A stretch of DNA of 53,188 nt from a virus. The DNA is taken from IMG/VR virus record IMGVR_UViG_3300032236_000387, positions 1 through 53,188 of that record, one strand, 5' to 3'. Below the pieces are notes generated by a model. It saw nothing but the letters and a program-made list of their open reading frames with translations. It was not told the origin of the DNA and made no database searches. Positions 5,083 through 50,540 of this stretch are shown one piece after another. A program made the translations under genes and the position numbers. How positions within the stretch are numbered: position 1 is the stretch's first letter; each line of letters opens with the position of its first letter.

Positions 5083-8000
5083 ATGAGCGACAAGCACTTG
5101 ATGGGGATCAACGTGACGACCGACCGCAAGGCTGGCCGTCGTTACGCTGATCTGATCGTGGATGGCCACAAGGCGTATGAGTCGCGCAATGGAGATACGC
5201 TTAGACCGTATGTAGGCAAGCGTGTGGCCATTGTCCGGACCGGAGAGGGACCAGCAAAGGCCATTGGTGAAGTGACGGTCGGCGAGCCGATGGTGGTGAA
5301 CCAAAAGCAGTTTAGGGGCATGGAGCATCACCATCTGGTGCCAGAGGGATCGTCGTTTGACATTAAGACGCCGACCAAGCATTTGTACCCGATGCATAAC
5401 CCGGTGCGCTATGAGCAGGAATACGATGTTGGGCACGGGATCATTGCCCGGAAGGTGCATAAAGCAGAAGGCGGATCAGTGAGCGAACCAAAGAAGACCG
5501 TCAAGGCGTACAAACTGTTCCGGGTCCATCCCAAGCATCCCGGCAAACTGTTCCCGCTGTTTGTGGACTCGAACACTCCGGTGGCCATGAACGAGTGGGT
5601 GGCCGCGAAGGAAGGCGAGATGGCCAATGGCAAGGTCAAGTCGAAGCTGGGGCCGCTGGCGTACAGGCCGGGATGGCACGCTGGGGATTTGCCAATTGCC
5701 ACGCACATCGGGGAGAAGTCGCACAAGGATCTGAAGGCACCCGACCGCAGGCCAGCAAACCATGCATGGGCCGAGATCGAGATGCCCGATGATGTGGATT
5801 GGCAGTCGGAAGCGAACAAGCGCGGCGTGAACGCTAAAGGCAAGTTCATTCCGAGTCGGGCGCACATCACCGATCAACTACCTCATGAGGGGCACTATCG
5901 GTACAAGACCAACCCGAACATGACGGGGAACTGGCTCATTGGCGGGGCCATGAAGGTCAACAAGGTGCTGACCGATGACGAGGTCAAGAAGATCAACGAG
6001 CAAGCCGGTGCAAAGGATTTGCCAAGGGCGGCACCGTTTGATGCCAAGCATTTTGGGTTTAGGGATGGCGGCGTAGTGGGGCCAGAAGAGTGGGTGGCCG
6101 AGGAGCACGTCAATCATCATCACATCGTACATAAGGCGGAAGGCGGACTAATGGATACTTCACTGGCGCAGATGCGTATGGCGTTATCGCGCCAGAGCAA
6201 TCCCAAGATGATGGACAGTGTTGGGTTGAATGAAGCTCTGGACATGAAACCTAAGATGTTCATCAATCCCAACTCGAAGACGCAGGGCAATCCTGACGTG
6301 GGTGGGGTTCCAAGTAACGCCAGCCTGCCGATTGGCGGAATTGATGCCAATCCGATGGCTCAAGGCCAACAGATGGTTCCTAAAGCACCGCAGGCGCAAG
6401 CGCAGCCACAAAGTCCGCCGGGTAATCCTGCGCCGATGACGGGATCGCCACCGGATGGTCAACAGGGCGGACCCAAAGGAAATCTATTGGCTCTGACCTC
6501 ACAAGGGCAAGCATTGAATGCGTTGAAGCCAGCGCCAATGGCTGATGGTGGATTAGCCAAGTTCAAAGCCGCGATGATGTTCAAGCGCGATCAGGCAAAA
6601 CACCGGATGTACGCAAAAGGCGGGAAGGTTTACGAAGAGACTGAAAAGCCCAAGCGCATCAAGTTCAACGCAAAAGGTCATGGCGGTGTCAGCGGGATTG
6701 TGGTGCCGCGTCATATGTGGGAAGGAAGCCAGCACGCTGAAGGGATGGAGAAGGTCAACGCGGCAAGGGCTGCGGTTTATGGAGGTGAGAAGCGTTCACC
6801 GTTGGGGATCAATCAAGTGGGTCGTATTCACCGGGATACGCTCAATGATCATTTCAAGAAACCAATTGAGCAGCAGCAGGCCGATGAGCAGGCCGCGTTA
6901 GAACGCTTACGGAAAGCCAAGCATATTGGCCGCGGGGCGAACACGCTGGATGAAAGCGAGAAGCTAGACACGGTCAGGCATGAGCGCGATGCACAGGGCC
7001 GTACCCATGTGGGGTATGCGTCTAAGGGTGTGGCGGGGCATTCGTTATACACGTCAGGACACGGTGACGAGCAAGAGCACCACGTCATCAATACCTGCCC
7101 CGGCCAGACGGTCGGATGCGGCGGTGGTATTGATAAGAGCGGAGTTGTGGATACCAGTAAGGGAACGTGTTTTGCGCCCAATGCGGAGTCGCAGTATGTA
7201 AACGCGGCGGTACGTCGGGCAAGCCATGAGCAGGCCAAGCATGACCCGGCAATGACGCGGGATTGGATTTTGGCGCACACTGGGTCATTGAGGGGTGTGT
7301 CGAACACCGCGGACAAAAAGAATGTCCGGACGTTGTTCAGGCCAAACGTGGTGGACGAAACTGACGTGTCATCGCGTCATGCAATTCGGCATTTGAATGA
7401 GCAACGTAAAGCTGCAGGCAAACCACCGATTATTGCCAACTCGTATGGCAAGACCACGGAACTGCATGACCCGGAGAACGGGTATTACGTTACGCACTCG
7501 AACGTCGGGCCTAAGACCAAACACGGCAAATCAATTGAAGAGAACATTGGGCGAGACAAGCAGCGTGTTCGATCAACGATTCTGGCCGCGGACGCCAGCG
7601 GAAAAAACTTTACAAACGAACAGGGTAACAAGACGCCACCCAAGGGTTCGTACATGGTGACCGATGTGAAGCGTGGATCGCCGTTGTCAAAAGCGATGCA
7701 GGAACACATTACGCACGCCAAGTATTGGTCAACGCCAAAACCCGTAGAAAGCCTCAGTGACGAGGAAAAAGCTGAAGGTGAAGAGAACCATTACAACGGT
7801 CATGGGAAGCCTACAACGCCGGACAAGTCGCACTATGGGCATACGACGCTGAATGGGCAGCGGTACGACTACCAAAAGCAACACGTTTTGCACCCAAGGC
7901 TGGTGCAGGTTGGAAAGAATCCAGATGGTAGTGATCACATGATCCCTACCGATTCACGGTTTAAGGATGAGGATTTCCTTCCGAAAAATCGGTACATGAC

Positions 8001-48592: not shown

Positions 48593-49459
48593 ATGGACTT
48601 CATCGATTTTGCGAGGAGCCATGGGTTACAGATCACGGCCCTGTACCCATCGGAAAAAATCAAACGCTGCGGGACCACACTGAAGCCGCGGTCGGACAAT
48701 GGCGCGTATTTTTGGGATGGGACTCGGGGATGGATCATGGACTGGTCGGGAGAGGCCAAGGTGGTCTGGTACTCAGATTCCAAACCATGGACAGAGGCAG
48801 ACAAGCAGGCATGGCGCGACCGCAGACGCGCTCAATCCACTGAGCAGAGCAAACGGTACGAGGAGGCCGGTAAACGGGCGCAGGAGACGCTACAGCGTGC
48901 CCAGATGGCCGATCACAACTACTTCGAGTACAAGGGTCTGAAAGGGACTCAGGGGCTGGTGATTGGTGATGCATTGTTGATCCCGATGAGGAATGTTCAC
49001 ACGAACGCTTTGCAGGGCTACCAGCGAATCGTGTGGGTTCCGCATGAGTTGAAGTACGAAAAGAAGATGCTGCCGGGTATGAGGGCGCGTCATGCGGTTC
49101 ACTACCTCGGTGGCCGATCCAGCGAGTACTGGTTGGTGGAAGGATACGTTACCGGGTTAAGTCTTCACGCTGCCCTAAGAAGCTGCGGGTCGAAGGCATC
49201 GGTGATTGTGTGCTTCTCGGCGAACAACTTGATTCAGGTGGCCGGTCAGTTGAATGGTCAGGTCTTTGTGTTTGCGGACAACGACAAGTCGCAGACCGGG
49301 CAACAGGCTGCAGAGCAGACCGGACGACCTTGGACCATGGCGGACGAGGAAGGATTCGACGCCAATGATTTACACGTTAAAAGCGGGTTGTTTGCGGTGG
49401 TGAAAAAAATCATGGAACTGAAGAAAAAGCACTTGACGGAGGTATCAAGGGCCGCTTAA
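48593..49459 (+). CDS. Toprim-domain primase-like protein, 288 aa
   Basis: The C-terminal half has a Toprim plan: WLVEGYVTGLSLHAALR with the conserved Glu, and VFVFADNDKSQTG with the D-x-D pair. Before it, LLIPMRN and GYQRIVW segments fit the primase-like phage family that binds an RNA-primer template. The N-terminal about 60 residues (DFARSHGLQITALYPSEKIK) look like the start of phage primase-helicases, but no helicase domain follows. Probably works with the DEAH helicase upstream. A structured RNA region follows. Confidence 0.75.
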   Translation: MDFIDFARSHGLQITALYPSEKIKRCGTTLKPRSDNGAYFWDGTRGWIMDWSGEAKVVWYSDSKPWTEADKQAWRDRRRAQSTEQSKRYEEAGKRAQETLQRAQMADHNYFEYKGLKGTQGLVIGDALLIPMRNVHTNALQGYQRIVWVPHELKYEKKMLPGMRARHAVHYLGGRSSEYWLVEGYVTGLSLHAALRSCGSKASVIVCFSANNLIQVAGQLNGQVFVFADNDKSQTGQQAAEQTGRPWTMADEEGFDANDLHVKSGLFAVVKKIMELKKKHLTEVSRAA

Positions 49460-49462
49460 AGT
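49433..49462 (+). promoter_or_regulatory. possible promoter for the structured RNA
   Basis: TTGACG (49433-49438), 18-base spacer, TAAAGT (49457-49462), overlapping the end of the primase-like gene. The -35 is good and the -10 mediocre. Start would be near 49470, giving a transcript of about 120 bases ending at the T-run at 49585-49592. Confidence 0.4.
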
Positions 49463-49469
49463 CCGCACA

Positions 49470-49592
49470 TCGATGGCTGGAACCCATTGAGAAAGAGCAG
49501 TTAAGCCTGATCCCGACCCCGGAAGGGGTGCCTCAGAAGCCACAAGTTTCTGGGTGGTTCCACCGGGGTCAGACTTAACTGCTCTTTTTTTT
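49470..49592 (+). ncRNA. predicted structured small RNA, cloverleaf-like
   Basis: AAAGAGCAGTTAAG (49492-49505) pairs perfectly with CTTAACTGCTCTTT (49574-49587). After one mismatch, CTGATCCC (49507-49514) pairs with GGGGTCAG (49565-49572). Inside lie three hairpins: ACCCC-GGAA-GGGGT (49516-49529), CAGAA/TTCTG (49534-49538/49548-49552) and GGTG-GTTC-CACC (49553-49564). This four-way junction ends in T8 (49585-49592), an intrinsic terminator. No protein frame is plausible here. Function unknown; it does not look like tRNA, tmRNA or a riboswitch I know. Confidence 0.65.
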
Positions 49593-49841
49593 ATCCCGCT
49601 GAGTTGGACGCGCACTGGCAGTAGCGACTCAGGGACACCCCTACTACGGGAAAGATGCTGAGACAGGGGAAAGGGTGGCGAAGATAGCGCCCTTGCATCG
49701 AACGGCTGTCGGGTCATGTGGCTCCGAGGAGAACATGAGAAGGCAGATCTAGGAGGGCTAGGTCTGTCCACCAAAGAGAACAGTGAAGAGAAGTGATTGA
49801 AAGTAATTGACAGTAATTGGGCCGAGCGCCCATTTTTTTTT
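49593..49841 (+). ncRNA. second predicted structured RNA region
   Basis: No protein-coding frame is convincing. Strong local hairpins are visible: CAGATCTAG (49744-49752) with CTAGGTCTG (49758-49766), 9 bp; TCATGT/ACATGA (about 49716-49739) enclosing CTCC/GGAG; AAGGG/CCCTT near 49678-49703; and CTCAG/CTGAG near 49630-49660. The region ends with a hairpin and T9. I cannot tell whether it is one RNA, a leader of the next gene, or both. Confidence 0.45.
49818..49841 (+). terminator. intrinsic terminator ending the RNA region
   Basis: TGGGC (49818-49822), loop CGAGC, GCCCA (49828-49832), then nine T (49833-49841). It lies just upstream of the shared promoter-like motif at 49858, so it separates the RNA region from the oxygenase operon. 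Confidence 0.8.
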
Positions 49842-49857
49842 ACTGAAACCCAAACTT

Positions 49858-49871
49858 TGTGTTAGACTGTG
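49858..49871 (+). promoter_or_regulatory. shared regulatory motif before oxygenase operon
   Basis: TGTGTTAGACTGTG is identical to the motif at 43516-43529 ahead of the Cro-like gene. It contains GTTAGA, the right half of the early-promoter operator, and an extended -10-like TGTTAGACT. A clear -35 is missing. It probably places the oxygenase operon under the same regulator as the Cro-like gene. Confidence 0.55.
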
Positions 49872-49889
49872 GTGATCAAAGGAGAGATC

Positions 49890-50540
49890 ATGTCGGACAC
49901 ACTTGAGGAATTTCACTACTTCACGTCGCCGGTTTACGCGGTCAAGAAACCTGAGTTTCTGGACGTTCTGAGGGCTGTGTCGGCCAAGTACTTGGCGAAA
50001 TCCAAGGCCAGAAAGAAAACGACCAAGCCGATCACGGTGATGACGGGGAATTTTGCGACTGATCCCGCGGTGGCTGCGTTTGCCCAGTATGTCTCGCAGA
50101 GCAGTTGGAACATTCTGAACGCGCAGGGATATGCGGCGGACGACGTGGTGACGTACTTCAAAGAGATGTGGTGTCAGGAACATAATTTTATGAGCCATCT
50201 TGATCCGCACTTCCATGGGGAGGGTGCCCAGATGGCTGCGTTTTATTTTCTGGATGTGCCGATCAAGAGTGCGAAGCTTTTGATCCATGATCCGCGGGAT
50301 GCCAAGATCATGGCGTCGTTGCCTGAGAAGAATCCCAAAGTTGTGTCGCCTGCCGCGCACAAGGTTGTCCTGACGCCGCAGGAGGGTACTCTGGTGATAT
50401 TCAATTCGTGGATGACGCACTCGATTTCCCGGCATCTGAACCGAGAGAAATCGATGCGGTTCATCCACATGAACCTTGGCGTTGCTCCCGCGGTGAAGCA
50501 GCGCAAAACCGTCAAAGAGCCATCAGTGGAGATCATATGA
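49890..50540 (+). CDS. putative 2OG-Fe(II) oxygenase, paralogue 2, 216 aa
   Basis: I choose ATG 49890 (ribosome site AAAGGAGAGATC), which gives exactly the length of the paralogue at 27456. The motifs align: DPH107-F-H109-GEGAQMAAFYFL, then LLIHDPRDAK, and H177 in WMTHSISRHL followed by RFIHMNLGV. It should bind Fe(II) and 2-oxoglutarate in a PF13759-type fold. Unlike paralogue 1 it is in the early/regulatory half of the genome, so the two copies may act at different infection stages. Substrate unknown. Confidence 0.75.
   Translation: MSDTLEEFHYFTSPVYAVKKPEFLDVLRAVSAKYLAKSKARKKTTKPITVMTGNFATDPAVAAFAQYVSQSSWNILNAQGYAADDVVTYFKEMWCQEHNFMSHLDPHFHGEGAQMAAFYFLDVPIKSAKLLIHDPRDAKIMASLPEKNPKVVSPAAHKVVLTPQEGTLVIFNSWMTHSISRHLNREKSMRFIHMNLGVAPAVKQRKTVKEPSVEII

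Follow-up and report, generated by a model that had tools for sequence, protein, structure and literature searches.

Comparison of the window (the entire 53,188-nt stretch of viral DNA analyzed, IMG/VR record IMGVR_UViG_3300032236_000387) with related viral sequences reveals a real RNA family with no description to date, here termed RNA1 and lying between a primase-like gene and a second structured RNA (RNA2) of the Betaproteobacteria-1 family (RF02932). In the reading that we tentatively favor, with a probability of about 0.45, RNA1, a noncoding RNA gene of phages, serves as a terminator leader gated by a pseudoknot, which would meter transcriptional read-through into RNA2. Its structure and its status as a gene are well supported by sequence comparison; its transcription, its termination and its gating role are what we infer from the same sequences. 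The novelty would reside in the RNA class and in the tandem arrangement, leader RNAs with leaky terminators having precedents. The original prediction for this locus, an RNA not yet described and carrying its own terminator, stood as regards a conserved gene outside any Rfam family, but its topology had been misread: right in essence, it erred on one topological detail that is the key feature. Its account included neither the pseudoknot, nor RF02932 from position 49597, nor the tandem of RNA1 and RNA2.

Locus and predicted fold of RNA1

The stretch 49466-49592 folded with a minimum free energy (MFE) of -65.4 kcal/mol, compared with -37.5 ± 4.1 for shuffled sequences (z -6.9; equaled by 0/200 shuffles), and a wider piece (49460-49600) also folded better than its shuffles (z -5.7). 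The MFE structure comprised a 5' hairpin (P0), a 15-bp P1, a 9-bp P2 and two further hairpins, P3 and P4 (Table 1), and left an 8-nt junction strand unpaired (GGTTCCAC, 49556-49563). Several elements that had been proposed for this locus were recovered, namely the perfect 14-bp stem (49492-49505 / 49574-49587), its 8-bp continuation with one G-U pair (49507-49514 / 49565-49572), the closing T8 (49585-49592), the location in a gap devoid of protein genes, and a promoter-like site at the end of the upstream gene, which lies in the final codons of the primase coding sequence and has its predicted start near 49469. The interior of the structure, however, had been described as three hairpins around a four-way junction. 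Only two hairpins (P3 and P4) were found, together with the 8-nt unpaired strand, and RNA1 is therefore a three-way junction, to which a pseudoknot is added. The supposed third hairpin (GTGG-TT-CCAC, within GTGGTTCCAC) was not formed in the MFE structure; this segment supplies the 3' strand of a pseudoknot formed with the P0 loop.

The resemblance to a tRNA cloverleaf was likewise rejected, given the three-way junction with its pseudoknot and the lack of any covariance-model or ARAGORN call for RNA1; ARAGORN gave no tRNA gene in the window. For the window plus 32 loci related to it, RF02932 and tRNAs were the sole Rfam 15 families, and none of them lay over RNA1, where the best sub-threshold matches were at noise level. 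The Rfam c4 model, among 4227 models, did not match RNA1. Nothing pointed to the packaging or specific decoy roles that had been suggested.

Table 1. Coordinates of predicted features at the RNA1-RNA2 locus (positions in the window unless a contig is named).
Feature	Position	Strand	Basis or description
Primase-like gene, Toprim domain	48593-49459	+	upstream of RNA1
RNA1 promoter, sigma70-type	49433-49462	+	-35 TTGACG 49433-49438, 18-nt spacer, -10 TAAAGT 49457-49462
RNA1, ~124-nt structured RNA (predicted start to T8 end)	49469-49592	+	fold, homologues, covariation
P0, 5' hairpin TCGATGG-CTGGAAC-CCATTGA	49470-49490	+	MFE; loop is the pseudoknot 5' strand
Pseudoknot 5' strand TGGAAC (P0 loop)	49478-49483	+	complementarity, covariation
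P1 5' strand, terminator stem	49491-49505	+	partner 49574-49588
P2 5' strand, extending P1 past one mismatch	49507-49515	+	partner 49564-49572
P3 hairpin GACCCC-nnnn-GGGG, near-invariant	49516-49529	+	fold, alignment
P4 hairpin, variable stem, apical loop type CANAA (window: CACAA)	49530-49555	+	fold, relatives
Pseudoknot 3' strand GTTCCA	49557-49562	+	inside unpaired junction strand 49556-49563
P2/P1 3' strand and T8, intrinsic terminator	49564-49592	+	T-run in relatives
RNA2, Betaproteobacteria-1 RNA (RF02932)	49597-49714	+	Rfam 107.1 bits, gathering score 49.4
RNA2 terminator TGGGC-CGAGC-GCCCA and T9	49818-49841	+	sequence
Putative 2OG-Fe(II) oxygenase gene	from 49890	+	downstream of RNA2
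Second RNA2 class, examples	L136:6122-6339, L160:622-839, L229:9937-10155		10 more in alignment A2

Conservation among relatives and divergent versions

A search with the primase yielded 32 related viral contigs, with a similar structure behind the primase in most of them. The conserved-core pattern TTAAGNCNRAYYCCGACCCC retrieved 84 stretches in viral contigs, which together with the earlier loci amounted to 62 distinct RNA1 relatives; a first pattern, GAGCAGTTAAGNNTGA, was discarded as too short, its matches being mostly due to chance. In 62/62 relatives the outer stem kept no fewer than 11 of its 12 pairs, and in 62/62 the P0 loop showed perfect complementarity over 6-10 nt to the strand just ahead of the 3' GGGG, which is the strand of the supposed third hairpin. 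The two pseudoknot strands varied jointly (GTGGAA/TTCCAC, GTGAGA/TCTCAC, GTTGGAA/TTCCAAC, GTAGAAG/CTTCTAC and TGGTAAC/GTTACCA, with TGGAAC/GTTCCA in the window). The near-invariant core consisted of GTTAAG, CCGACCCC and GGGG; the P4 loop was CAAAA or CACAA in 37/62 relatives, on a stem of 3 to 12 bp.

Covariation was evaluated in an alignment of 53 non-redundant sequences (A1). Pairing was kept in 99.3% of the cells of P1 and P2, with two-sided changes in 8/20 pairs, and in 97.3% of those of the pseudoknot, with two-sided changes in 5/7 pairs and up to 33 sequences per pair. P0 was paired in 73.7% of cells (53 relatives, with indels in the alignment at this position), and 5/6 of its pairs showed two-sided changes. 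Over the whole structure there were 124 two-sided cells, compared with 35.9 ± 5.2 in shuffles that ignore relatedness, and sliding the partner strands destroyed the pairing signal. Moreover, P0 paired better with its own junction (-13.92 kcal/mol) than with those of other sequences (-11.38 ± 0.30 kcal/mol; 0/2000 permutations, relatedness being uncontrolled). Both features proposed to define the family, a covarying P1/P2 and a covarying pseudoknot, were found in RNA1. Stems broken without compensation in relatives had been named as an outcome that would count against the original prediction; compensatory changes were found in them instead.

The architecture also appeared ahead of RF02932 in sequences of a different kind. 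A search centered on RF02932 gave at least 119 stretches in viral contigs; among the matches listed, 74 were distinct and had enough upstream sequence, and a stem ending in a T-run was called directly ahead of RF02932 in 52 of these 74. The sequences of these stems were wholly unlike one another (AAACCCCTTAAG, AAAGCCCTTGAA, AGACCCTTTTGG and AAGGCTCCATTC, among others), and in most the P0 loop paired with a strand 8-14 nt ahead of the 3' half of the stem. This pairing exceeded 90% of shuffles for 22/35 distinct stems, some of the failures reflecting a wrong stem chosen by the script. Some entries without a terminator were threshold misses (L309, for instance, has the structure), and in L145, L151, L181 and L214, all of them ordinary R1 members, the automatic choice of stem was wrong.

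A sequence-blind finder required a T-run, a stem of 12 bp with a span of 50-170 nt and, 5' of this stem, a hairpin with a loop able to pair over 7 nt or more close to the 3' strand. Applied to both strands of the window it returned RNA1 as its single match, and it returned none in 40 random windows. In 6.4 Mb of fetched relative DNA (both strands), 70 distinct places were found, of which 37 were of the window type and 30 lay ahead of RF02932, the two sets overlapping. The remaining places were syntenic, behind the primase (L124, L127, L129, L133, L134, L135 and L148), with L104 as the one exception. The RNA1 architecture has been kept in dozens of phages despite an almost complete turnover of sequence, which makes it a good test case for the conservation of RNA by shape.

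Transcription signals, RNA2 and genomic setting

Among 49300-49950, the TTGACG/TAAAGT site was the only promoter-like site. A sigma70-like promoter (at least 9/12 consensus matches) was present in 58/62 relatives, compared with 9% of shuffled sequences, at a nearly constant distance from P1, so that the predicted start falls just ahead of P0. In the 62 relatives no such promoter was found within RNA1, at its boundary with RNA2 or in the 76 bases that follow that boundary. As no promoter was seen between RNA1 and RNA2, RNA2 would be reached by read-through; RNA2 may also have an internal promoter that is not of the sigma70 type. A GC-bearing stem followed by a T-run 5-9 long, as in intrinsic terminators, was found in 62/62 relatives. 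A further promoter-like motif, TGTTAGACT, is conserved ahead of the oxygenase gene (49860-49868, and the equivalent site in relatives) and is possibly a phage promoter or a regulator site.

The RNA1 T-run ended about 5-30 nt ahead of RNA2 (in the window, RF02932 starts 5 bases past it), and RNA2-type sequence was located behind RNA1 in nearly every member checked. The noncoding gap from RNA1 to the next ORF of at least 80 codons was mostly 210-700 nt, and 60/61 downstream stretches were related to at least one other, a figure to which shared phage ancestry contributes. In many phages RF02932 is replaced behind RNA1 by a second class of structured RNA ('CCGTACTCCGCACG...'), which had no Rfam match; its alignment (A2, 13 sequences) contained 46 predicted pairs, 10 of them with compensatory changes. 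More noncoding sequences recurred behind RNA1 in L149 and L157, L182 and L207, L210 and L231, and L159 and L168, and look like additional RNA2 classes. RF02932 also occurred in the absence of RNA1: in Acidovorax phage AP1 it comes right behind the primase, and in L125, L152 and L155, among others, right behind a gene. RNA1 thus appears to depend on RNA2, but RNA2 does not appear to depend on RNA1.

Just behind the T-run, many relatives, those of the L149 type among them, carry a sequence, D (GTTTTCCACGCC...), complementary to their own P0 (-20.97 for P0 against its own D, compared with -19.38 ± 0.43; 0/2000 permutations, relatedness being uncontrolled). D was absent from the window and its nearest relatives; it may therefore be accessory and, being confined to a subset, was not taken as a defining feature. 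Extra hairpins lie between the T-run and RNA2 in L189, L209, L216 and L234, and in the last of these the P0-complementary sequence resumes behind the inserted hairpin.

RNA1 was single-copy in each phage contig bearing it, matches on the minus strand being due to the palindrome. The unit was found behind primases and ahead of ParB/helicase genes, and also next to genes for terminase, phosphoesterase, Holliday-junction resolvase, RtcB, PAPS reductase and replication initiation; in one group the gene ahead of it is on the opposite strand. Since these contexts vary, the unit appears to be a portable module rather than the regulator of one neighboring gene. In the interval between primase and RNA1, some relatives have tRNA genes grouped in threes to fives (L124:4305-4786, L138:6221-6478). 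Repeated long hairpins flanked by CCAACACGCATGGGGA...CAGTCCCCAGCCGTGTTGG were also observed there (L157, about 5930-6160, which has more than one such unit; L147, L131 and L137) and may represent a small element, either mobile or structured.

In 84,980 bacterial genomes a 20-letter pattern matched 17 loci, none of which fitted the RNA1 model; as no convincing copy was obtained from them, RNA1 looks virus-borne. The plasmids searched gave no RNA1 match. When 369 genomes were swept with R1 and RF02932, without a positive control, nothing was found, which is no evidence of absence. In the phage collection, R1-type RNA occurred in MW202545 only, assembled from spring water, and Acidovorax phage AP1 had RNA2 and no RNA1.

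Possible function and comparison with known systems

In the gated-leader reading, host RNA polymerase would produce an abundant, stable RNA1 of ~125 nt, with leakage giving a longer transcript that spans RNA1 and RNA2. About 45-110 nt lie between the two strands of the terminator helix, and the 3' strand of the pseudoknot would emerge just ahead of the 3' half of the helix, tying the 5' end to the junction. Because the P0 pairing would hold the ends together, closure of the helix would be favored in time for termination, and if the pseudoknot aids closure in this way, termination would depend on P0 being free to pair. Capture of the P0 loop by D, by another RNA or by a protein would increase read-through into RNA2, and RNA1 in its short form may have a trans-acting role as well. 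P1 on its own is a strong terminator and may need no pseudoknot; no antiterminator competing with P1 was recognized, such as a riboswitch or attenuator would use for a ligand-dependent choice ahead of a gene, and the D pairing lies only after the terminator. The wider proposal of a widespread, protein-free phage module of two RNAs, in which a pseudoknot-gated terminator RNA, conserved in shape but not in sequence, sets the output of a second structured RNA, is put forward with more reserve.

The main rival is a self-contained RNA acting in trans as a regulator, sponge or decoy, made compact and long-lived by the pseudoknot, with RNA2 as a separate neighboring effector; we consider it possible, on the lower side of even. 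A strong promoter combined with a strong terminator would suit such an RNA, as would the near-invariant core and the presence of a single-copy module in many unrelated gene contexts, and the best argument is the conserved CANAA loop of P4 on a variable stem, as in a loop that is recognized. A free RNA, however, would not need to lie always directly before an RNA2-type stretch, as RNA1 does where this could be checked, when RNA2 can occur alone, and the divergent versions share no sequence for a common target.

The genomic setting bears on two further explanations. Location after the primase in the lineage of the window, and elsewhere by primase/helicase, ParB/helicase, Holliday-junction resolvase or replication-initiation genes, would suit a replication or recombination element, such as a transcript that primes replication, but other copies follow terminase or phosphoesterase genes or lie by PAPS reductase or RtcB, a conserved terminator would be unexpected in a primer, and no change in GC skew was seen at the site (a weak argument, the skew being positive almost throughout); we regard this explanation as improbable. 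Equally hard to sustain is the view of RNA1 as nothing more than an elaborate terminator, or an insulator, at the end of the primase operon: the perfect stem and T-run of all relatives agree with it, yet it accounts neither for a conserved promoter between the upstream gene and the stem, nor for covariation of P0 and the pseudoknot outside the terminator, nor for a unit that shifts gene contexts and in one group follows an opposite-strand gene. Coding sequence, chance or a palindrome acting as DNA is highly improbable. Two small annotated hypothetical proteins of MW202545.1 (UOF78433.1 and UOF78434.1, 5652-6109) overlie RNA1 and RNA2, and are probably spurious annotations; coding was rejected for the RNA1 core, whose lengths are evenly spread over the three phases and in which no frame is open in most relatives, and covariation between separate loops would have no reason in duplex DNA.

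The gated-leader reading, if true, would mean that a noncoding RNA controls the transcription of a second one, encoded behind it, and the orphan family RF02932 would gain a transcription context in the form of an upstream promoter and a terminator gate. RNA1 adds a large RNA family without an Rfam entry to phage genomes, which are usually annotated for proteins only, and offers a direct and cheap experiment on the possible control of intrinsic termination by a 5' loop-junction pseudoknot.

As regards known systems, RNA1 shares with tRNAs and tRNA-like RNAs a multi-branched form and a long closing stem, but differs in its junction, in the pseudoknot and in the absence of a tRNA call. The ornate RNAs GOLLD and ROOL are structured noncoding RNAs found by comparison and present in phages, and we know of no established function for them; RNA1, in contrast, is about 125 nt long, ends in a terminator and matched no model. 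RF02932 is itself a phage-borne structured RNA that sits directly behind RNA1 on the same strand in the window and many relatives, yet RNA1 lies outside its model and has no similarity to it; a search on Betaproteobacteria-1 / RF02932 found nothing within the literature searched.

The CI RNA of phage P4 and the c4 RNA of P1/P7 are antisense RNAs that serve in immunity and target protein operons; their loops are complementary to flanking leaders, and they influence termination or read-through. By sequence, RNA1 has a promoter and an intrinsic terminator, and with a read-through transcript it would resemble the c4 and IsrK type in this respect; it differs from CI and c4 RNA in lacking a model match and in that the first partner of its loop lies in the same RNA. 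Regulation, by pairing, of a downstream protein gene for an antirepressor, a trait of c4 and IsrK, was not found either, the next stretch being RF02932 or another structured RNA, followed by various genes.

In IsrK of Gifsy-1, as reported (PMC4825925), a phage promoter gives rise to a short RNA that ends at an intrinsic terminator, and a fraction of transcription reads through into the orf45-anrP protein genes; the short RNA is complementary to its own read-through transcript, with alternative structures and action in trans. The sections consulted describe no loop-junction pseudoknot like that of RNA1. IsrK, which has no Rfam match in RNA1, is the best parallel to the layout of RNA1, with the difference that what lies downstream of RNA1 is a noncoding RNA and not protein genes.
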